Notes under the pieces: model-generated
What the model was told of the DNA's origin: nothing
The model's database searches: none
The model's input: only the letters and a program-made list of their open reading frames with translations
Translations under genes and position numbers: made by a program
In this document: positions 16,421 through 35,124 of the stretch, piece by piece
How the letters are laid out: the number at the start of each line of letters is the position of its first letter
How positions within the stretch are numbered: position 1 is the first letter of the stretch
Source: a virus
Strand: one strand, 5' to 3'
Virus record (IMG/VR): IMGVR_UViG_3300014838_000687
Coordinates: 1 to 35,124 of that record
Length of the DNA: 35,124 nt

Positions 16421-17788
16421 CTAGAACCACCTGAACCGGGGCGACCCAACCAGGTCGACGTGAGCGACCACGTACCGCATCGCGTCGGCACCGTGGTCGT
16501 TCTGCTTCAGCGGGGCCTCTTTCACCGTCGAACCTGAGCCCTGAGATGAATGAGACCGGTAAGTAGAGCTGTCCCAGACATACTCCAGCATCTCGTCCTG
16601 GAGGCACAGGGGCTTATGGCCCTGCTCCAGTGCCGCATCCCGGCGGACCAGCGCATCACGGCAGATATAAAGGCGCGGCCGGCCGTCCTCCGCTACCCGC
16701 AGCCGGGACTGCACCGCCTGGATTCCCTCACTGACGTTCTTAGTCGCGGCGATCGTGCCCACATCCAGGTGGCGCTCCAGAGTGGCCCGGTCCTCAGCAT
16801 CGTGGTCGCAGATCACCGTGGTCGGCATCTCATCCGGGTGCCGCTGGCCATCACCGTAGTGGACAGCCGACCGGATCTCTTTCGCCCAGTCCTCCACCAG
16901 CATCCCGGTGCCGTACAGCTCCCGGTACATGTACAGGCGCCCATCCGGGTCCTCAGCCCACCACTGCGCCGTGAACGGGTTCCGGAATCCGAAGTCGATC
17001 GACAGGTACCGGTTCCAGCCTTTCGGCACCGACTTGATCTGCGGGTGCAGGTGAACCACCGGGTCGTAGGTGCCGTAAACCAGGCCCTCAGCCGCCGCCC
17101 AGATCCCCTTCCGCAGCCGCAGATACCGGACCCCGGACAGGGCCTCCAGCCGGGTGATGTAGTCGAGGCCCTCCACCGTCCAGCGCCCGTCGTCGTACAG
17201 CCTCGGGTTATCCTCGTGCACCGACGTGATCATCGTGCACTGCCCGCGGGTGCACCGCTGATTCAGCCAGTGATGCGGTGCACCGGGGTTGGTGTCCGCG
17301 ATCAGCTGCTGAAACGAGCTGACTCCGTTACGCAGCCGGGTGGTGATCGCCTCCCAGTCGTCCTCCTCCAGCTCGATCGCTTCCTGCACGTAGGCCAGGT
17401 CGTACTCCGACGACATGATCCGGCTGGCCTTGTCCATTCCGCCGACCGTGATGGTGGAGCCGTTGCCGTACTTGAAGCTGGCCGCCTCCTGCCGTGATCC
17501 GCCGTAAAACCGCACCTCGCCGGACTCGATCGCCTCCTTCCCGACGATCTCCCGGAACGTCACCAGCCCCGTCGAGGTCAGCGACACCGCCGACTTCCGC
17601 ACGATCAGCGCGCGCAGCCCCTTATGCAGCAGGCACATCGCGTGAACCTTCTCCAGCGCCGCACGCGATTTCCCGGTCCCGGCCGCACCGGACATCAGAA
17701 CTTCGGGGTCCCGGCACTCAAACAGCTGCTTCGCCGAGCCGACCGGGCGGTATTCGTGGGCCAGCTGAGGTGCGGCGGACGACGGCAT
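16421..17788 (-). CDS. terL: Phage large terminase subunit
   Basis: The 455-residue protein has a Walker A motif GAAGTGKS (34-41), a Walker B-like segment DLAYVQEA (E136), a DTNPGAPHHW coupling motif, and a C-terminal RNase H-like nuclease with SIDFGFRNP (D265) and VICDHD (D328). It powers DNA entry into the prohead and cuts concatemers. It is the last member of the minus-strand gene run that begins near 20.4 kb and is separated from the portal by an HNH gene and the inverted cassette. Confidence 0.95.
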   Translation of the reverse strand: MPSSAAPQLAHEYRPVGSAKQLFECRDPEVLMSGAAGTGKSRAALEKVHAMCLLHKGLRALIVRKSAVSLTSTGLVTFREIVGKEAIESGEVRFYGGSRQEAASFKYGNGSTITVGGMDKASRIMSSEYDLAYVQEAIELEEDDWEAITTRLRNGVSSFQQLIADTNPGAPHHWLNQRCTRGQCTMITSVHEDNPRLYDDGRWTVEGLDYITRLEALSGVRYLRLRKGIWAAAEGLVYGTYDPVVHLHPQIKSVPKGWNRYLSIDFGFRNPFTAQWWAEDPDGRLYMYRELYGTGMLVEDWAKEIRSAVHYGDGQRHPDEMPTTVICDHDAEDRATLERHLDVGTIAATKNVSEGIQAVQSRLRVAEDGRPRLYICRDALVRRDAALEQGHKPLCLQDEMLEYVWDSSTYRSHSSQGSGSTVKEAPLKQNDHGADAMRYVVAHVDLVGSPRFRWF

Positions 17789-20944: not shown

Positions 20945-21970
20945 ATGGAGTACCAGACGATGGACACTGTGGACGAGCTGCCCACCGAATACCTGCTGGA
21001 AGGTCTGCCGAAGATCCCGCGCGGTGACCTGACCCTGGTCTACGGCGACGGTGCGGTAGGCAAGGGCCGGCTGGCGATGAGCTGGATAGCTGACGTGATC
21101 AACACCGACCCGGAAGCTGTTGTGCTGATCTGCCTGCCGGAGGACCACCCGAACGAGCAGATCGCGCCACGGCTGACCGCGGCCGGGGTCAGTGACAAGT
21201 CCCGGGTTATCAACATCACCCGGCTGCCCGGCGGAGCACGCTTCAAGCTGAGCGCCGACACCGCCCACGACGGTGACATCGGCCTGCTCCGCGAGATCGT
21301 GATGGACATCAACGAGCAGCCTGACCGGACGGTCCGCATGATCATCATGGACCCGATCGCGGCCATCGTCGGCTACGGAACGATCCAGACGAACGCCGGA
21401 GCACGAAAGCTGCTGGAGCCGATCCAGGACCTCTGCCAGGACACCGGCATAGCGGGCATCGTCGTCGCGCACAGCGTCAAGTCCGGCGTGCTGCAAGGCT
21501 CGGCTGGTCTGTCCCAGGCGGCCAGGTTCGTCTACAAGGTGAGCAAGGACAAGAACAACCCAACGGTGCGGTGCATCTCGATCGAGAAGGCGAACAACCT
21601 GCCGCCCGGCGAGGACATCAAGTACACCCTGGAAGACGACGGCGACGGCGTGCGTGTGGTGATGCTGGACACGGGCACCATCGAGAAGCGCCAGCGGTCG
21701 TGGAGGGCGTCAGGCCCCGCTGTCTCCGGGCACCAGCCGCCCCGGTGTGAGCCCGCACCAGCACCGCGCCCATTCGGCGGTGGCGCCCCTGACCCCCTGT
21801 GCGACGTCCTGCGTACGGTCCAGGCCCTGACCGCTGGCCTCATAGCGGTGGAGTGCCCGGTCTGCGCGGCGCCTGCTGGTGCGGGCTGCGACCCGGACAG
21901 CGGTACGCCATGCGAGCTGGTGGGCGAAACCCGGGTTCACCTGGCGCGGGCACGGGCGGCTGCCGCCTGA
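20945..21970 (+). CDS. RecA/RepA-like AAA ATPase with C-terminal zinc finger
   Basis: The 341-residue protein has a P-loop GDGAVGKG (34-41), where the usual Ser/Thr after GK is Gly, and a Walker B strand MIIMDP (D136). It also has the AHSVKSG segment and overall size of RepA/AAA_25-type hexameric ATPases, used in plasmid and phage replication or recombination. The C-terminus carries ECPVCAAPAGAGC and later Cys, His and Arg residues, the pattern of the small phage zinc-finger domain common in actinobacteria. It has its own promoter and terminator and lies opposite to the surrounding minus-strand genes. Role in element replication or recombination is inferred. Confidence 0.8.
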   Translation: MEYQTMDTVDELPTEYLLEGLPKIPRGDLTLVYGDGAVGKGRLAMSWIADVINTDPEAVVLICLPEDHPNEQIAPRLTAAGVSDKSRVINITRLPGGARFKLSADTAHDGDIGLLREIVMDINEQPDRTVRMIIMDPIAAIVGYGTIQTNAGARKLLEPIQDLCQDTGIAGIVVAHSVKSGVLQGSAGLSQAARFVYKVSKDKNNPTVRCISIEKANNLPPGEDIKYTLEDDGDGVRVVMLDTGTIEKRQRSWRASGPAVSGHQPPRCEPAPAPRPFGGGAPDPLCDVLRTVQALTAGLIAVECPVCAAPAGAGCDPDSGTPCELVGETRVHLARARAAAA

Positions 21971-22149: not shown

Positions 22150-22599
22150 CTACTCCAGCGCGGCAACGTCCACCCCGACCACGCTGTGCTGTACAGGCAC
22201 GACCACAACAGACTGGCGCGGCGGGAGGTCGCCCATTTCCTCCGCGACCTGGCGCAGGATCATCGCGCGGGTCTTTATGTGCTCGAAGTGATCGCCGTAG
22301 TCATTATTGGCCTTTGACGCTTCCCAGTCGGCCATATACGCAGCGATACGGTTCTCTTTCTTCGCTATCCACATACCGACGAAATCGTCCTCTATCCGAT
22401 CGCGCATCTCATCGATAAGTGCCGCATGCCTGCGGGAGAATTGCGTAATCGCCGGAGGGGTCACCCCGAACCTTTTAGCGATTTCCCTTTTGGTGAGATC
22501 CTTGACGGCCAGGTGACGGCACACCTCATGCCAGCGGTGCCGCGGGATGCTGCCGCGGTCCTCGTCCGGTACGACCAGCTCACCGGCCATCGGGTCCAT
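22150..22599 (-). CDS. Putative small terminase subunit (HTH protein)
   Basis: I use the ATG at 22599, with GCGAGG five bases upstream; a GTG two codons earlier is possible. The 149-residue product has an N-terminal helix-turn-helix (LTKREIAKRFGVTPPAITQF, residues ~34-53), a long helix, and a HIKTRAMILRQVAEEMGDLPPR segment of a kind seen in phage small terminases and their relatives. Small terminases recognise pac/cos DNA and load the large subunit. It is unusual that the large terminase lies 4.4 kb further on, beyond an inserted ATPase gene. It could instead be a regulator. Confidence 0.55.
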   Translation of the reverse strand: MDPMAGELVVPDEDRGSIPRHRWHEVCRHLAVKDLTKREIAKRFGVTPPAITQFSRRHAALIDEMRDRIEDDFVGMWIAKKENRIAAYMADWEASKANNDYGDHFEHIKTRAMILRQVAEEMGDLPPRQSVVVVPVQHSVVGVDVAALE

Positions 22600-22704
22600 G
22601 CTCACCTCGCGCGGGATTTTGATCTAGCCCAGAACATATTCTAGCCCGTTTAGCGGAGGGCCCCAGGACGGCCTCAGGGGATTGCCCGCGGCGGTGAAAC
22701 CGGG

Positions 22705-22758
22705 ACCCCAGGAGCGTGGATTTGAGCGCCCACGGACCACCCCAGGAGCGTGGGTTTG
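22705..22758. repeat. 20-bp direct repeat pair in the candidate origin region
   Basis: ACCCCAGGAGCGTGGATTTG (22705-22724) recurs with one change (G for A at position 16) at 22739-22758, start to start 34 bp. A shorter CCCCAGGA word also occurs near 22661. They may be protein-binding iterons. Confidence 0.75.
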
Positions 22759-22934
22759 GGTGTGCGTGACGCTCTCGACGGGCCGGTCCGGGACGATCCG
22801 TGGGCCGGGTGGCTGCGTCGGTTCTGCGTCGGTTAAGCGGGATCGGGCGAAGACCGTCACGCACAGTCACTAACCCGGCGCGTGGAGTGTTATTGCCATC
22901 TGCTGCGTCAAAATCCAGTGCTATGTAATCATAT

Positions 22935-23050
22935 GGGGGGTCAGAGGGGGTCTAAGGGGGGCAGTTCCTTATTGAATATATATAAGAGAGAGAGAGAGCT
23001 TTTAGAATCGCTATTACAGGGTGACCCCCCTAGACCCCCCCTGACCCCCC
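22935..23050. other. G-run/C-run inverted iterons flanking an AT-rich core
   Basis: Left arm: three G-runs (22935-22940, 22946-22950, 22956-22961), each followed by TCA, TCTA or CA. Right arm: three C6-runs at 23025, 23035 and 23045, spaced exactly 10 bp. The arms are near-perfect inverted copies of each other. The 58-base core between them includes ATATATATA and an (AG)n run. The one-helical-turn spacing is what a repeat-binding initiator would need. The arms could also form G-quadruplexes. Confidence 0.7.
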
Positions 23051-23068
23051 ATGCCTTACTATAGCAAT

Positions 23069-23105
23069 GAGCCCCCGACATGATCCGCAGTCATATCGGG
23101 GGCTC
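23069..23105 (-). terminator. Long hairpin just after the primase gene
   Basis: GAGCCCCCGA (23069-23078) pairs with TCGGGGGCTC (23096-23105), with a further inner ATGA/TCAT pairing. It lies 16 bases past the primase stop on the minus strand. There is no T-run, so it may act as an mRNA end stabiliser or a factor-dependent stop, or be part of the origin. Confidence 0.55.
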
Positions 23106-23120
23106 ACCGTGTTCAGCCGG

Positions 23121-25878
23121 TTACACGCAACGGTCCCAGCCGCGGGTGATCGTCAGGGTCGCCGCCTTGTTCTTTGAGGGCTTCCTGAACACCGAAAATC
23201 CGGCCGCTGCGAGCACGTTGTACAGCTCCGTGATCTTGTCGCTGAGCCGCCGCGCGTTCTCCGGCCAGTAAGCAGAAATCTGCCCGCCGATCTCCCGCAG
23301 CCCGGACAGCGCGGTGAACAGCTCTGTAGCCGTGCCCTTCCAGGTGGCCGCTACGCACGCCGGGCGGGGGTCAGACTTGCTGGTGCAGCTCGTGCACTTG
23401 CACCACGGGAACACCAGCAGGGTGGGTGAGGTGCATGCCCGCTTCGACACGCACTCCGGGCACTGGCCGCACGGACGGCGCGGCGGCGTGAACAGCTTCT
23501 CGATCGCCATGACCACCGGCTCACCCGCGGCCTTCTCCTCTTTGGTGGTCTTGATTGATTCCATGAACGCCTCGCGGCAATTCGTGCCATACGCCATATC
23601 GTGTGCGGTGAGAATGTCCGCGTACTCAGCCATCCGGCCGCCGTTACGCTTATCCGCGGGAATTGCCGGGAGCGCGCGAAGCACCTGCACCACGTGGTCG
23701 AGAATCGCACCGAGAATTTGCGGCCGGGCCATATCGAACGACACCTGGATTTGCGCGTCTCCCACCCGGCTGCTATCACCGATCGGCTCACACGGCACTT
23801 CGATGATCCGCTCCAGCGCGTCAGCCGCGAGGCCGTAAGGCAGCGACAGCCCGGTGGCGACGAACGTCCGCTTGTACTCCACGGAGATGTCATCGAAGTT
23901 GGTCTTCATCTTCCTGAAGGTGTCCACCCGGCCGGTGACCATGTTGCAGAGCCAGTCGGACTGCTCGGCCGTCACCGACGTCATGTTGTCGTACGTGCCG
24001 ATGTACGCCTTCACCGCCCGGATGATGTTGTTGCGCTCATCGTTCTTGTCCATCTTGCCGCGGAGCCACTTCACGCCGTCGGCCAGCCGGGCGAGACTGG
24101 CGGCGTAGGTGGTCTTCCCCGAGCCCGGGACCCCGGTTGCCCAGATGCCCGGCCGGGACACCGACGTGAAGAACGCCGCGACCAGCCAGCCGGTGCCCAG
24201 CGAGATAGCCGTAGGGCCGGTTACCCGCAGGATTGACCACAGCATGTCCAGATCGCCGCCGTAGACGGGTGCTGGCAGCGGGAAGTAGCCGACGGAGCGC
24301 CGGAAGACGGGCGGTGCGATTCCGGCCGGCAGCTTACGCGGGTCGGTAACCCACCAGTTCTCCGCGGTGACGTAGACAACCTGCCCGGTGGCGTCGCCCA
24401 GGTCGATGATCAGGTACCCGTTGCCCTGCACCGACCGCAGCTCCGCGCTGACTTTCCGGGCGTGCGCCATGCCCTCGGCCTCGATGGCACCGACGATGCC
24501 GGACACGATGCTGGGGTTGGCGACCTTGCTGACCACCTTGATCTTTTCCTTCGCCCGGATTTCGGGGTCCGGGTACGCCTCGAAAACCCAGCCGTTCCAC
24601 ACCTGAGCCAGCTCGCGCCACATCCGGGTGATCAGCCACCGGACTTCCTGGGTGAGGAATGACCGGGGGATGTAGGGCTCGTCCGGCAGCATCGGGCCGG
24701 GCAGCAGGAACAGCTCGCCTCCGGTGTCCCGGGCGAATGCGTACGACTTGAGGATCGCGTCGGTGATCATGTCGGCGCTGGGCTTCGGCGGCCGGTTATC
24801 CGCGAGCGCACCTTCCAGGCCGTTTCCGGCATGTGGCGGTTCCGCGTTCCCGGTAACCCAGGTCACGTCGCCTGCTGCGGGGTTAGCTGTCACCGGCTGC
24901 GCGGACCCAATCGCCGCGGGTGCGCCGTGCCCATTTCCGCCGGTCACCTCGACGGGCAGTAGTGTGACCTGACCGCCGAACCACTGCGCCTGGCTGGCGC
25001 TGTTCGCCTTGTCGTAGGCCGGATGGCACCTCTCGTACGCCCGGTAGACGTCGCCATCACCGCGGCCGGTCGCGCTGTCGTATTCGGCGCACAGCTCGGA
25101 GAACAGCGTGCCCATGCCTGCGACGCCGCTGCCCCCGGCCGCCTTGATGATCCCGCAGCGACGGGGCAGCGAGCTGTTGCGGTCGTCCAGCACCCAGTTG
25201 CCGAGTACCTGCTCCGCGAAGTTCTCCGGGTACTCACCGTCCGGCTGCACCCAGGTTGCCCGGTCGGCGTAGAGGTCGTCCGAGTTACCCGCGGCGTTAT
25301 CACCGTGCAGGACGTTGCCGTTGTCCGCGAGCAGCGCCAGCATCAGCCGCTCGTCCGCGACGACCCACGGCTTGCCGGTGTTCTCGTACCGGGTGCCGCT
25401 GGCATGGACGCCTTCGGTGTAGCAGAAGCCGTTGCTCTTGATGTGCCCGAACGGGGTGAGCCGCTGCTTCGGCCACAGGTGCAGCAGGTGCGGCGGGACG
25501 ATGATGGCGACGTGGAACTTGAAGGTGCCGTCTTCGCACTCCCGGATGACGGTCGCCACACCGCGCCACGGCCCGAGCAGTTTCCCGGTTGCCGTCTGCT
25601 CCCACTTATCCGCGTAGTCGCCGTCCAGGAATATGGTCAGCGATGTCGTAGAGCACGCGACCCCGGTGTTCTGGAACTGCCCGTACTGCGGGTGTGGCGT
25701 CGTACCGCCTGCGACGAACGGCTGCTTCGGGTACTGGGTGCCGTAGGGGATGTCTTCAACCTTGCCGGAGACGCAGCCGATCTTGGCGTCATCGGCCGCG
25801 TTGTACCACCAGATCCGGGTGGGCGTGAAGTCCCCGGGCGCTGTGGTGTCTGTTGCGGTAGCATTTACACTAAGCACT
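23121..25878 (-). CDS. Primase-polymerase / SF3-like helicase replication protein
   Basis: I start at the GTG at 25878 (AAAGGA upstream; 9-base overlap with the preceding gene); upstream frame codes Arg/Pro-rich non-protein sequence. The 919-residue product has an N-terminal Prim-Pol-like domain: an acidic motif IFLDGDYAD (~84-92), KFHVAIIVP with a His, and GHIKSNGFCYTEG. Then follows a C-terminal helicase with Walker A GVPGSGKTT (~582-590), YDNMTSV and an ATGLSLPYG segment typical of such helicases. A Cys-rich zinc cluster (CGQCPEC...CKCTSC, ~802-830) is inserted before a winged-helix-like end (WKGTATELFTALSGL). It should make primers and unwind the element's origin, which probably lies immediately downstream. 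Confidence 0.85.
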
Positions 25879-26181
25879 GGGGGTCCTTTCCCCACCTGGG
25901 CCGTCTGCCTGTGATGAGGCAGGCGGCCCGTTCTTTGCGTATTTGAGTTCGAGGCCGCCCTGCTTGAGCCGGGCCCACGGCAGGTCCGGTATGGTGCTCT
26001 TCCGCGGGCGGTGCTTGCCGCAGAACTGCGCGGTGATATGTACCACGTCCGGCCCCCGCGCCCACATTCCGCAGGTGCCGGCCTCTCCGCAGATGCAGCA
26101 CGGTGTGAGCCCGGCCCGCCTGACCGGCATGACGGTGATGGACCAGATGCCGTAGCGCCAGTGCTCGGGGTGTTCATTCAT
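25870..26181 (-). CDS. Small Cys-rich protein upstream of the primase (103 aa)
   Basis: A 103-residue protein whose end overlaps the primase start by 9 bases, so the two are coupled. It has CCICGEAGTCG (residues ~28-38) and a later FCGKH (~53-57), a likely zinc site. The C-terminal third is basic then Pro/Ser/Gly-rich. The ATG at 26181 follows a CAGGGAG site. Not recognised; a DNA-binding cofactor of replication is plausible. Confidence 0.65.
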   Translation of the reverse strand: MNEHPEHWRYGIWSITVMPVRRAGLTPCCICGEAGTCGMWARGPDVVHITAQFCGKHRPRKSTIPDLPWARLKQGGLELKYAKNGPPASSQADGPGGERTPSA

Positions 26182-28848: not shown

Positions 28849-29038
28849 AGGTCGCGAGACCCAGACGTGTACCACCAGGAAACCGGGCAAGTTGCCCAGT
28901 TTCAGGTACCGAGAGTAGGTGGACGACCACGTACTGACGGTACTCCTGCCCGGCCGAGGCGGAAGGGCTCTAAGATCTCTGACGCTCAGATCGAGGAGAT
29001 CATTACGGAGAGCGTCGTTACAGGTCGCCGAGACCCAG
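28849..29038. repeat. Imperfect direct repeat at the integrase 3' end, possible att/arm sites
   Basis: AGGTCGCGAGACCCAG (28849-28864) and AGGTCGCCGAGACCCAG (29022-29038, over the last integrase codons) differ by one inserted C. The core AGACCCAG recurs at 30169-30176 on the other side of the gene. Such repeats could be integrase arm sites or remnants of attachment-site duplication. Confidence 0.4.
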
Positions 29039-29923
29039 GTGGCGGGACTCTTCAGCCGCGCGTTCAGCCGCGGTGTCCTCTACATAACGGGCCAGCATGT
29101 CGCGGCTCGACCACCCGGCCACAGCCATCAGGCCGCCCTCACTGCCCCCGGCGCCAAGCCATCGCGACGCCCCCGTGTGCCTTAGCCGGTGCGGATGGAA
29201 GTTCTTAATCCCGGCGTCCTCAGCCCTATGCCGCAGCGTCGCGTACAGGCCGTCGTAACCCAGGCCCTTGCCGCGCTCCCCCAGCCACAGCGCGCCCGAC
29301 GAGGCCGCGAGCACGTGGGAGCGCCGCAGCCGCAGGTACCGGTCGATAGCCCTGGCGGTCTGCGGCCCGAACGGCACGATCCGCCCCTTGCCGCCTTTGC
29401 CGCGGTGGATGGTGGCGATCCCGCGCCGCAGGTCCACGTCATCGACGGTGAGCGCCAGCAGTTCCTCCGCCCGGCACATCGCCTCAGCGGCCAGCCTGAC
29501 GATAGCCTCATCCCGCCGGTCCCGCAGTCCCTTGCCCGCACACGCCAGGATCAGCCGGTGCAGCTCGTCATCGGACAGCTTCGGCACCACCTTGCGGTCC
29601 GTCTTCGGGGGTGACATGCCCACCAGCGGGTTGCTGCCGGTCTCGCCCTCATCGGCCATCCACGCGGCGAGTCTGTACAGCGACCGGTACCGGGCATTGG
29701 CAGTGGCGGCCTGTGCTCCGCGGGCCAGCAGCCCTGCGATGAACGCGCTGACGGTTCGCCGGTCGAGCACGGCGGGGCGCTCGCTGGCCTCGCACCAGGT
29801 GATGAACTGCCGGACTGACGTGGTGTAAATCTTGATCGTGTTCGGTGACTTGCGCTCTGCCTCCAGCGACAGCTGCCAGCTGGGGAGCAGCGCCACGAGG
29901 TCCGGGCCCAGGTTTTTTCCCAT
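29018..29923 (-). CDS. int: Tyrosine recombinase / phage integrase
   Basis: The 301-residue protein has an N-terminal SAM-like core-binding domain (residues ~8-95) and a C-terminal catalytic domain with all expected residues: R151 (AEAMCRAEELLAL), Lys in GKGGKGR (~176-179), H245-x-x-R248 (HRLRHTG), W271 in place of the second His, and nucleophile Y280 (MLARYVED). It should integrate or excise the element at a specific site. It has no arm-binding extension, so it is of the simple type. A putative operator lies 27 bases upstream of its start. It separates the phage part from the plus-strand transfer-like operon. Confidence 0.93.
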   Translation of the reverse strand: MGKNLGPDLVALLPSWQLSLEAERKSPNTIKIYTTSVRQFITWCEASERPAVLDRRTVSAFIAGLLARGAQAATANARYRSLYRLAAWMADEGETGSNPLVGMSPPKTDRKVVPKLSDDELHRLILACAGKGLRDRRDEAIVRLAAEAMCRAEELLALTVDDVDLRRGIATIHRGKGGKGRIVPFGPQTARAIDRYLRLRRSHVLAASSGALWLGERGKGLGYDGLYATLRHRAEDAGIKNFHPHRLRHTGASRWLGAGGSEGGLMAVAGWSSRDMLARYVEDTAAERAAEESRHLGLGDL

Positions 29924-31547: not shown

Positions 31548-32069
31548 ATGGACCTGCCCACCTACTCCAGCATCTGGAAAACCCGGCGGATTATCCACAA
31601 GGTCGAGGACGTCAGGCTGCCGATGCCGGTACCCGCAGACGTGCTGCTCCCGGCCGCGATCTGCTACGCCGCGTGGGACGGGTTCTGGTGGGCGGTCATG
31701 GGGAACGGGCCGTTTTCGGCGCTGGCAGGTCACAGGGCTGGCGTCGCGTTCGGGCTCACGGCCCTGTTTTACGCGCTGCCGCCGTTCTTCGCAGCCAGGG
31801 TCCTCACCCACCCGAACCGCGAGGGCAAAAACGCCGTCCAGGCAGTCCGGTCCGTGATCCGGTTCTACGCCCGGCCCCGGGTGCTTGACGGGTTCGTATC
31901 CAGGCGGCACATCAAGGTGTGGCTCCGAACCAGCCCGGCACCCGCGGACCCTGCCGATAAATGTCAATTTGACATTAACCGGCTGCTCGAAAAGAACCTG
32001 CGCATGTGGGAGGCCGTCCTGAAGGCCATCAAGCGGAGGAAGGGGAAGCATGAAGACGCCGCAGCGTGA
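31548..32069 (+). CDS. TcpE-like conjugal transfer membrane protein (173 aa)
   Basis: The N-terminus YSSIWKTRRIIHKVEDVRLP with PVPADVLLP after it matches the start of TcpE-type proteins. Two membrane segments follow (about 30-45 and 58-84), and then a basic cytoplasmic tail (~95-173) rich in Arg/Lys. TcpE-like proteins are membrane partners of the VirB4-type ATPase in Gram-positive conjugation machines. The VirB4-like gene starts within the last 20 bases of this gene, which supports a shared complex. Confidence 0.7.
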   Translation: MDLPTYSSIWKTRRIIHKVEDVRLPMPVPADVLLPAAICYAAWDGFWWAVMGNGPFSALAGHRAGVAFGLTALFYALPPFFAARVLTHPNREGKNAVQAVRSVIRFYARPRVLDGFVSRRHIKVWLRTSPAPADPADKCQFDINRLLEKNLRMWEAVLKAIKRRKGKHEDAAA

Positions 32070-34494
32070 CGCCGTACCCGTCTGCTACTTCGACGGCCGG
32101 GTCCTGATCACCGCCAGCGAGGCGTGGGCCTACTTTGTGCTGCCGCCGGTCAGCTGGGCGTTCCTGTCCAGTGCCGAAAATGAGCAGCAGATCGCCTCTG
32201 CCGCCGGGGCGTATGCGAATCTGCGCGCACCCGAGCAGGAACTGCCGAAGATGGAGGCCCTGCTCCTCGCGGCGAAAACCTCGAAGATCGCACCGGTCGC
32301 GGAGCTGCACATCCGGACCGCGGCGAAACGCTACTCCGCGCACGACTGGGCTGAGCGCATCCACGGTGGATCAGATACCGACGGCGCCCTCAAGCACCTC
32401 ACCCGTGTGCTGGGCGTTATCTCCGGGCAGGACTTCTGGGAGAAGGTCACCTATCTCGGCGTCCGGCTTGGTGCGCGGCGTTCCGGCAGCCTGATCGAGC
32501 AGCCGTCCGACATGGAGATCGAGAGGTGGACCGGGCTGTCCCGTTCTGCCGGGATCACCCTGGGTGCCTCCGAGCTGCACGCCCGGCATGCGACCGCCGC
32601 GGAGATGGCCTGGCTGATCCGGCACATCGCGCAGGGGCCCGCCCAGGATCTGGTGGCGCTGCCCGGCCAGAAATCGTACGGCCCCGATGACGTCGCCGGC
32701 CTGCTGGACGGGTCGTTCACCGAGACGAAGACCCAGCTGATCCGGGACGCCGCGGACACCACCAGCTACAGCAGCGTTCTCACCTTCGCCTCGTTCCCGA
32801 AGACCATGACCTACCCAAACGGCGGCCCGCCCTGGGCTGTGCTCGCGGACTGGTCGGCTAGCCCGGCGTTCCCGGTGGAATATTCATCGCGGGTAAACCT
32901 GATGGACCCGGCTCAGGTGGACAAGGACATCCGGCACCGGCTGATCAGTATCGATGAGGAGACCGGGCACACGGCCACTGCCGGAGCCCACGTTCCGCTG
33001 GCGCTGTCCGAGCGGGCCGGTGACGCGCAGCACCTCCAGCACGCCCTCCTCACCTCCGGGGACCCACTCGCCTACGCCACCCACCGGCTGATCGTGCCCG
33101 GCGGCAGTGAGCAAGCCTGTGCGCAGCGGGCCCGCGCCGTGATCGAGTTCTGCAACCGGAGCGGCATCCGGCTGGTCGCCCAGCACTACGACCAGCTGCC
33201 CCTGCTCATCGAGACGATCCCGGGTGGCACTGCCCGCGGGAAGCTGCACATGCAGCAGCAGCCGATGACCACCATCGCCGCGGGGATGCCGCAGGCCGCT
33301 GAGTCGCTGGGCGACGGCGAAGGCCCGTACCTGGGCACCGCACGGACCCAGACCGAGAGCCCCGTGCACTGGAGCCCATTCACCGCGGCGCAGCGCGACG
33401 ACCCGACCGTGGCCGCGATCCTGGGCGAGCCGGGCGGCGGCAAGAGCTACCTGACCGGGCGGATCTGCCTGGACTCCGCGGTCACCCGGAACGCCACCGT
33501 GGTGATCATCGACCCGATCAAGCGGGAGATGCGGCAGCTGGCGCCACTGATCGGGGAGGCCGGGCTGCCGGTCAAAGTGATCGCCATCAACGATGATCAC
33601 CCCGGTCTGCTGGACCCGTTCCGGTTCGGCGGCTCGCTCGGGGAGAAGATCCAGCGTGCTGCGGAAGTGCTGATCATGCTGCTGCCCGACACCGTGGGCG
33701 ACAAGGAGAAGGCGTCCCGGCAAGGTGCCATCCTGCGGGCCGTGGAAGCGGTGGCCGATCAGCCGGACGCCTCCCTGACCAGGGTGATCGAGTGGCTGAA
33801 GGCTGAGGCGGAGCGCAGGAAGGACGACGGGTCCCGGATCGAGGAGAACCTAGCCACCGAGCTGGGCACCATGAGCCGGATGCCGCTCGGTTCGCTGTGC
33901 TTCGCGGAAGCTGACGCCGAGAGCCTGGACATTCTCGGGCAGACCACCATCCTCACCTTCAGCGGGCTGGACCTGCCGTCCGCGTCCACCGATCAGGGCA
34001 ATTACCGGATGGCGGAGCGGCTGGCCGTCGCGCTGTTCTACCTGGCGACCGAGCTGGTCCGGGGACTGTTCGCCGCCGACCGGTCCGCCCCGAAGCTGCT
34101 GGCGATCGATGAGGCGTGGGCGCTGACCTCAACCCCGCAAGGCCAGGCGCTGGTGGAGGCGATGAGCCGGATGGGGCGGTCCCACAACATCGCCTTGCTG
34201 CTCGCCTCCCATAACGTGCAGGACTTGCTGGACGAGCGGATCACCGGCTGCATCTCGACGGTGTTCGCGGTCCACTCCCGGGCCGATAAGGAAGTCGCGG
34301 CGGTGCTGGAGCAGCTCGGCATCGAGGATACGCCCGGGAACCGGAATCACCTGGGCGGGCTGCAAACCGGCGAAGCGATCATGCGGGACCTGGACGGGCG
34401 GATCGGGATTGTGCAGATCGATGACGGGGGCCCGCTGTTCCGGCGCGGAATGGACACCAACCCCACCCGGAAGGATAACAATGAATCGGCCTGA
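32050..34494 (+). CDS. VirB4/TcpF-like conjugation ATPase
   Basis: The 814-residue protein is full length for the family. The N-terminal half (~1-400) is the VirB4-type membrane/partner-binding region. The C-terminal RecA-like motor has Walker A GEPGGGKS (459-466), VVIIDPIKREM, a Walker B LLAIDEAW (D687, E688) and an ALLLASHNVQDL sensor segment. Such hexameric ATPases power type IV secretion and conjugation channels. Cysteines are few and no frameshift is seen, so it appears functional. It ends within the start of the DUF2637 gene (14-base overlap). Confidence 0.88.
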   Translation: MKTPQRDAVPVCYFDGRVLITASEAWAYFVLPPVSWAFLSSAENEQQIASAAGAYANLRAPEQELPKMEALLLAAKTSKIAPVAELHIRTAAKRYSAHDWAERIHGGSDTDGALKHLTRVLGVISGQDFWEKVTYLGVRLGARRSGSLIEQPSDMEIERWTGLSRSAGITLGASELHARHATAAEMAWLIRHIAQGPAQDLVALPGQKSYGPDDVAGLLDGSFTETKTQLIRDAADTTSYSSVLTFASFPKTMTYPNGGPPWAVLADWSASPAFPVEYSSRVNLMDPAQVDKDIRHRLISIDEETGHTATAGAHVPLALSERAGDAQHLQHALLTSGDPLAYATHRLIVPGGSEQACAQRARAVIEFCNRSGIRLVAQHYDQLPLLIETIPGGTARGKLHMQQQPMTTIAAGMPQAAESLGDGEGPYLGTARTQTESPVHWSPFTAAQRDDPTVAAILGEPGGGKSYLTGRICLDSAVTRNATVVIIDPIKREMRQLAPLIGEAGLPVKVIAINDDHPGLLDPFRFGGSLGEKIQRAAEVLIMLLPDTVGDKEKASRQGAILRAVEAVADQPDASLTRVIEWLKAEAERRKDDGSRIEENLATELGTMSRMPLGSLCFAEADAESLDILGQTTILTFSGLDLPSASTDQGNYRMAERLAVALFYLATELVRGLFAADRSAPKLLAIDEAWALTSTPQGQALVEAMSRMGRSHNIALLLASHNVQDLLDERITGCISTVFAVHSRADKEVAAVLEQLGIEDTPGNRNHLGGLQTGEAIMRDLDGRIGIVQIDDGGPLFRRGMDTNPTRKDNNESA

Positions 34495-35124
34495 CGCCCG
34501 GCAAACCGTGATCGGCTCCGTAGGTGCCCTCGCGGTCGGCGCGGCGTTCGTCAGCTTCAGCCACACCTACGGGCTCGCTCGTGCTGCTCACCAAACAGCA
34601 ATCGTGGCCGCGGCCTACCCAATCTTGACCGATGTGCTGGTTTTGAGCGCGACGGTGTGCCTGCTCTACGCCGCGAAGCACAAGATCACGAAGGCGGCGC
34701 TGCCCCGGTGGGCGTTCGCGCTGGGGGTGCTGGCGACGGGCGCTGCGAACACCGGGGACTACTTCCGGCCGATCCCCGCGGCGGTTGGTGCTGTCGTGTC
34801 CGGGTGGAGTGCTGTCGCCTTCATCCTCGGGGTGCTGCTCGCGCACTGGTTCAGCGGCGCCACTGAGAATCTGCAAATGCAGAATGATCATGAAGTTAGT
34901 GATCTTCGCGATCTCAAGAATGTCAAAAATGACAATGATCATGAAGTTAGTGATCTTGAGACCAAGGCCGAGCCCGCGACCGAGATTAAAGAAATCTTTA
35001 AAGATCTTGAACCCGCAGCCGTCAGCAGCGCTCCGCAACCGTCCGCCGTCGTCAGCAGCGCTCCGCAACCGTCCGCCGTCGTCAGCAGCGCTCCGCAACC
35101 GTCCGCCGTCGTCAGCAGCGCTCC
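34481..35124 (+). CDS. DUF2637 (SpdB-like) membrane protein, truncated by the window edge
   Basis: The first ~116 residues hold four membrane segments (about 10-28, 44-64, 71-86 and 96-114), with HTYGLARA and a YPILTDVLVL segment characteristic of DUF2637 proteins of actinobacterial plasmids and integrative elements, linked to plasmid spread. The cytoplasmic part is unusual: a low-GC, acidic/basic tail with a repeated NDHEVSDL peptide, then a run of VSSAPQPSAV repeats that leaves the window. At least 214 residues are encoded; the end is missing. Confidence 0.8.
   Translation, partial: MNRPDARQTVIGSVGALAVGAAFVSFSHTYGLARAAHQTAIVAAAYPILTDVLVLSATVCLLYAAKHKITKAALPRWAFALGVLATGAANTGDYFRPIPAAVGAVVSGWSAVAFILGVLLAHWFSGATENLQMQNDHEVSDLRDLKNVKNDNDHEVSDLETKAEPATEIKEIFKDLEPAAVSSAPQPSAVVSSAPQPSAVVSSAPQPSAVVSSA
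34883..34957. repeat. 24-bp direct repeat with GATC sites in the DUF2637 gene
   Basis: AATGATCATGAAGTTAGTGA followed by TCTT (34883-34906) recurs exactly at 34934-34957, 51 bases later and in frame, coding NDHEVSDL twice. Six GATC sites fall between 34886 and 35006, in DNA that is much richer in A and T than the rest of the operon. Confidence 0.9.
35021..35124. repeat. 30-bp tandem repeat at the right edge
   Basis: The unit starting gtcagcagcgctccgcaacc is repeated perfectly three times (35021-35110) and begins a fourth. It is in frame and codes VSSAPQPSAV each time. The window ends inside the array, so copy number is a minimum. Confidence 0.97.

Follow-up and report, generated by a model that had tools for sequence, protein, structure and literature searches.

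A probable theta-type replication origin with phased, inverted iterons beside a helicase gene of an uncultured phage-like element

The 35,124-base virus record IMGVR_UViG_3300014838_000687 (IMG/VR; analyzed from position 1 to 35,124 and called the window below) contains, on its minus strand, a large terminase gene, portal- and capsid-like reading frames, an integrase gene and a long replication gene. Shortly after the 3' terminus of the last of these, positions 22916–23069 form an inverted array of short G-runs and C-runs. Comparative sequence analysis suggested that this region is the theta-type replication origin of a temperate phage-like element, with a probability that we put at roughly 85%. 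This assignment is based on the symmetry and position of the array, which are beyond chance expectation, on a core that is the weakest duplex of the window, on homology of the adjacent helicase, and on the same placement of iterons in relatives.

Anatomy of the inverted array

The array begins 71 bp past the stop codon of the replication helicase gene and consists of two arms of 48 nt each (22916–22963 and 23022–23069), which are 77% complementary and separated by 58 nt. The left arm (plus strand), identified by an inverted-repeat search, has an outer part, CAGTGCTATGTAATCATAT, followed by three G-run iterons: G6 at 22935–22940, G5 at 22946–22950 and G6 at 22956–22961, with start-to-start distances of 11 and 10. 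On the minus strand, these iterons (22935–22961) read as the word GACCCCC and its variants. The right arm (plus strand) contains the iterons TGACCCCCC, TAGACCCCCCC and TGACCCCCC in exact 10-bp steps and then its own outer part; the C-runs are C6 at 23025–23030, C7 at 23035–23041 and C6 at 23045–23050, whose starts are 10 and 10 apart. The core between the arms (22964–23021, no strand) carries ATATATATA (22976–22984) and an AG run (22985–22998), each of which is the sole such match in the window. Judging from its nearest-neighbor stability, it is probably a DNA unwinding element.

A first-pass annotation of this DNA had described three G-runs spaced about 11 bp, three C6-runs spaced exactly 10 bp, and inverted arms around a 58-base core with ATATATATA and an AG run. 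Our measurements agree with the G-runs, the two core elements, the C-run spacing and the core length. On the other hand, the middle C-run is a C7, and the arms are longer than had been noted.

The arrangement is not reproduced by shuffled sequences. Paired clusters, defined as three runs of at least five Gs within 35 nt plus a cluster of three runs of at least five Cs no more than 150 bp away, are found once in the window and in none of 300 dinucleotide shuffles. No other 48-nt inverted repeat in the window pairs as well as the arms do, with 37 of 48 positions paired (29–32 in six shuffles), and the array has a folding z-score of −5.9, which none of 200 shuffles equaled. When duplex stability was ranked by nearest-neighbor calculation across the whole window, the 50 bp from 22968 and the 30 bp from 22968–22969 were found to be the least stable of the 35 kb (rank 1 of ~35,000 each). 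In a motif-free 6-mer scan, the array interval ranked second in the window, where the top place went to a perfect tandem repeat with which the contig ends. Comparison of the array with phages and plasmids by blastn gave nothing useful. Matches in Rfam were rejected, as nearly all of them were microRNA hairpins below gathering scores, a trivial outcome for a long hairpin.

A separate 16-bp hairpin (23068–23106, minus strand; 94% complementary, 7-nt loop) is located between the gene stop and the array. It lacks a T run and is probably the end of the replication-gene transcript; the order of terminator and then origin would be the same as in plasmid pRN1.

The replication protein and iterons beside related genes

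The replication protein gene occupies 23121–26177 on the minus strand; its true start is uncertain, with homology from ~25844. No confident domain was detected in its 919-aa product in Pfam or PHROGs, and no PDB entry was related to it in sequence at a meaningful E-value. L009, which is the closest phage relative, has a protein with 49% identity across almost the full length of the window protein. Relatives of the helicase part only (about 23142–24860, minus strand, recognized by a profile match to plasmid helicases) were found in Microbacterium phage Zeta1847, in L072 and L073, and in 28 plasmids, mostly from Streptomyces. The plasmid helicases share about 24–28% identity with that of the window by tblastn, and hhalign of the phage-helicase profile against a profile of seven plasmid helicases gave 100% probability (E-value 2.4e-64, 472 columns). 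The N-terminal part, with two sequences in the query, matched no primase profile, neither PF09250 nor the plasmid Prim-Pol profile. Because this half has no match to the plasmid Prim-Pol, the label primase follows from position only. Thus, of the earlier statement that the array lies past the 3' end of a primase-helicase gene, the position and the helicase hold, and the primase is matched by no profile.

An AlphaFold model of the helicase part, built from four sequences, suggested a C-terminal winged helix resembling that of the iteron-binding protein RepE. The last 70 residues, in the better-predicted C-terminal part, are modeled in a strand-helix-helix-helix-strand-strand order. VIA-align comparison of this part with RepE/Rep winged helices gave Z scores of 4.6–6.4 over about 82 residues at 3 Å, which are below 8 and of a size that chance can give. 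From this low-confidence model and the structural alignment, the predicted winged helix (23142–23348, minus strand) is a candidate iteron-binding domain. A model of the whole protein (two sequences), whose mean predicted local distance difference test (pLDDT) score was 29.5, was not used.

Iterons were also found beside related genes. In L009, TGATGACGC iterons run from the stop codon at 9-bp steps and are followed by C7 and G8 arms around an alternating CG tract; a motif-free scan of this phage ranked the 3' region of the helicase gene third. Iterons likewise crowd the region just 3' of the helicase in all nine examined plasmids of Streptomyces and its relative Actinacidiphila, in each of which one short word occurs there in both orientations. 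These words include GTGACGC (13 copies) in the S. coelicoflavus plasmid NZ_CP107980, which has no annotated phage structural gene, GGGACGC (11–16 copies overall, 13–16 in pSTS2 and its kin), AGGGACG (12 copies) in pFP11, ATGACGC (5–6 copies) in NBC_01216 and pFRL5, and GGTGACG (12 copies). In motif-free scans of three whole replicons, no cluster outranked this region in the S. coelicoflavus plasmid or in pSTS2, and it came second in pFP11. In plasmid NBC_01238, a 31-nt GA-rich core is enclosed by 41-nt arms that are 88% complementary and include TTGACCCCC. The element TGAC/GAC is common to the plasmid words and the window's TGACCCCCC. In the plasmids, the gene preceding the helicase encodes a Prim-Pol primase that matches PF09250. 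It has been reported that Rep binds the iterons of pFP11 and pWTY27 and that their linear propagation indicates bidirectional replication (PMC3583192); the published RepA of pFP11 is not equated here with the pFP11 gene homologous to the window helicase.

We also analyzed the distribution of similar arrays in other phages. A scan of IMG/VR for inverted GGGGGTC arrays revealed 19 loci, or 14 once relatives were merged. Four of these 14 (L011, L056, L058 and L070) overlap a primase/helicase gene or lie within 100 bp of one, an outcome with a chance of about 1e-4 at one such gene per 20 kb and 4e-3 at a more generous rate, where only part of the 14 loci are fully annotated and some are unclassified. 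A fifth array (L066) is 0.7 kb from a primase/helicase gene. Because searches of the array contigs for Toprim_3 and one terminase family gave few or no matches, neighboring genes were classified gene by gene. In isolated phages of the L056 family, iterons lie directly 3' of the primase with a different word in each, which suggests that the position is kept while the word changes. GGTTCA (13 copies) in PB15, GGTACA (11 copies) in 1N2-2 and GGGGTC (7 copies) in G048 each form the top cluster of the genome, and GGGACA (6 copies) forms the second cluster in CGphi29. These iteron-bearing phage primases are unrelated to the window protein.

Control scans were carried out with other patterns. The opposite polarity gave 26 loci, mostly one coding-sequence family or second arrays in known loci; it also gave L082, whose array lies 59 bp past a primase/helicase gene. 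GGGGGCT gave six loci, and since a primase lies about 2.4 kb from the G-run array of one family among them, the exact word is not essential. Scans for the exact triple repeat found none in viral contigs and five unrelated places in genomes. Two further layouts were observed. In L099, L100 and L101 (e.g., L100 2150–2480), at least four inverted GGGGGGCTATG units are situated between other genes, ~2.4 kb from a primase. In L058 (7490–7750; also L063, L067 and L087), several inverted GGGGGTCTT arrays surround an alternating CACATGCGCGCGCGCACATG core and overlap the 3' end of a TOPRIM primase/helicase open reading frame.

Contrary observations and alternative explanations

Several observations weigh against an origin at this site. 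There is no GC-skew switch at the array, and the skew gives no support for an origin there. L009 is the sole close relative found, and its iteron word differs from that of the window; moreover, with respect to the core, C-runs and G-runs are oriented in L009 and the plasmids the other way round from those in the window. The repeats that the first-pass annotation expected in relatives keeping the gene are present, in diverged form, in L009; in the distant L072, L073 and Zeta1847 (the last with a TOPRIM N-terminus), no such repeats lie just 3' of the gene. The 3' region in the Stanieria and Methanothrix plasmids has no iteron cluster either. The helicase-part model has a mean pLDDT of only 44.7, and the modest Z scores of its predicted winged helix also belong here. 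In addition, a probable small terminase gene lies 330 bp from the array, with the array upstream.

Since this next gene downstream probably encodes the small terminase, it must be weighed whether that protein binds the array as a packaging site, which could be pac, cos or a terminal-repeat edge. The gene (22150–22605, minus strand, outside the proposed origin) has a weak PHROG match to terminase small subunits, and its relative in phage Dagobah sits directly before the large terminase gene and just inside the terminal repeat. Arrays also lie between the primase and terminase genes in several other phages. We nevertheless consider a packaging site unlikely. The arrays are closer to the replication gene (overlap to 71 bp) than to the terminase gene (113 bp to 1.4 kb), and iterons follow the homologous helicase even on a plasmid in which no phage structural gene is annotated. 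Beside the terminase pair of Dagobah there is no G-run array, and the overlap of the L009 contig ends falls close to where the small terminase gene begins, away from the L009 array.

About equally improbable is the idea that the iterons double as tandem primer start sites, in which case the GGGGGTC arrays of unrelated phages would represent a convergent, primer-coded origin. On the G-rich strand, the iterons contain GGGTC, which T7-type primases use as their template word (PMC12839067), and its direction in the window and in most primase-adjacent arrays found is such that primers made there would extend away from the core as leading strands. However, GGTTCA and GGTACA replace this word in one primase family, and polarity is reversed in L009 and the plasmids. 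The use of other words by PB15 and 1N2-2 led us to reject strict GGGTC priming as a general rule.

It is less probable still that the array is a strong hairpin which ends transcription or shields the 3' end of the replication transcript. It does fold very well (z −5.9) and follows a stop codon, but it lacks a T run, has a 58-nt loop, and lies between genes of the same direction. Relatives keep iterons rather than one stem, and in pRN1 the equivalent terminator is dispensable while the large stem-loop is essential. Lower again ranks the possibility that a transfer protein binds the array as a clt/oriT-like conjugation site: the clt of pWTY27 has TGACACC repeats and the window has conjugation-type genes (TcpE and AAA_10) at 31.5–34.5 kb, but that clt is at traA and the pWTY27 iterons are at rep, and the array adjoins the replication gene, 8 kb from the transfer-like genes. 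The earlier proposal that the runs, which are long (5–7 nt), clustered and three per strand, function as G-quadruplexes or i-motifs can be practically set aside, because the words at the same place in relatives (TGATGACGC, GGTGACGC, GGTTCA and GGTACA) lack long G-runs, which are therefore not the conserved property.

Other features of the window were also recorded. The large terminase gene (16421–17788, minus strand) was assigned by a PHROGs match, and the portal- and capsid-like frames to its left were identified by reading; the integrase gene is at 29018–29923 (minus strand). A RecA-like AAA_25 protein, which distantly resembles the L082 primase/helicase, is encoded on the opposite strand (20945–21970) between the probable small and the large terminase genes. 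Two copies of ACCCCAGGAGCGTGGRTTTG, 34 bp apart (22705–22758), precede the probable small terminase gene and may be an operator or a terminase site. In Dagobah (L091), many TGCAAAGG-type repeats occur at 1040–1170 near the terminal-repeat edge, upstream of the small terminase gene. The TcpE and AAA_10 conjugation-type proteins past the integrase (31548–34494) may indicate either a neighbor resembling an integrative and conjugative element or a phage-conjugative hybrid. Both window ends are perfect or near-perfect tandem repeats (1–103, GCTCAG in 17 copies; 35013–35124, a 30-bp unit in 3.7 copies), and thus the record probably stops at an assembly failure.

Known origins, a possible mechanism and implications

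As an origin, the array is of a known type, here in an unusual poly-G form. The nearest counterparts are Streptomyces theta plasmids of the pFP11/pSTS2 type (repA/iteron; compare the repAB and iteron system of pWTY27), which share with the window a homologous helicase, inverted iteron arms just 3' of it and, in some of them, a GA-rich core and a TGAC-containing word. In contrast to the window, these plasmids have primase and helicase in two genes rather than one, TGACGC or GGGACGC words instead of poly-C, and reversed arm polarity; the window element is phage-like, with a terminase and other head genes.

In phage-inducible chromosomal islands (PICIs), the origin is immediately 3' of the replication gene and two iteron sets flank an AT-rich region (PMC6092414). 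The window shares this arrangement with PICIs and the related Staphylococcus aureus pathogenicity islands (pri-rep-ori), but PICIs are satellites, while the window element lacks the satellite gene set and has its own terminase and other head genes. In the Sulfolobus plasmid pRN1, a stem-loop of ~100 nt past a dispensable terminator hairpin is necessary and, with the replication operon, sufficient; an origin of this type was also proposed for Bordetella phage BIP-1 (PMC4234260). Past the stop codon of a primase-helicase gene (primase in the window by position only), the window has the same succession of a small hairpin and a stem-loop of ~100 nt whose loop measures 58 nt, and low sequence conservation is a further shared trait. 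However, the stem in the window is made of three 10-bp repeats per arm, whereas that of pRN1 has no iterons. The replication protein of pRN1-type systems has an archaeo-eukaryotic primase, an SF3 helicase and a winged helix; the window protein has a P-loop helicase part and may have a winged helix, and profiles recognized no primase domain in it. Phage P4 has one multifunctional protein whose winged helix binds the origin repeats (PMC4234260), and the single window protein with its predicted winged helix resembles it in this respect. Replication of P4 involves another site, crr, whereas a listing of runs across the window showed no second array. Taken together, the comparison with L009, the Streptomyces plasmids and the PICI and pRN1 layouts supports the first-pass suggestion that a phased array of protein sites serves as the replication origin.

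By analogy with the pFP11/pWTY27, PICI and pRN1 origins, the most likely mechanism is as follows. The predicted winged helix at the C terminus of the replication protein (23121–26177) would bind the three 10-bp-phased iterons of each arm. With these sites spaced by one helical turn along the same face of the DNA, the protein subunits would stack in two mirror-image groups, and the stretch of core between the groups (ATATATATA and the AG run, the weakest duplex) would be pulled open. The helicase part would then load on the opened strands, the N-terminal part may provide priming, and two forks would depart in opposite directions.

These results provide a precise and testable candidate origin for an uncultured phage group. 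The layout of a replication gene followed by two iteron sets around a melting core, which was described in 2018 as confined to PICIs, would extend to a phage with its own head genes and to Streptomyces plasmids. They also suggest a rule for locating origins in phages and plasmids, namely to seek the strongest cluster of short repeats just 3' of the primase-helicase gene. Because the word drifts between relatives while the place stays, such gene-array pairs may offer a natural series for studying how an initiator and its sites change together.
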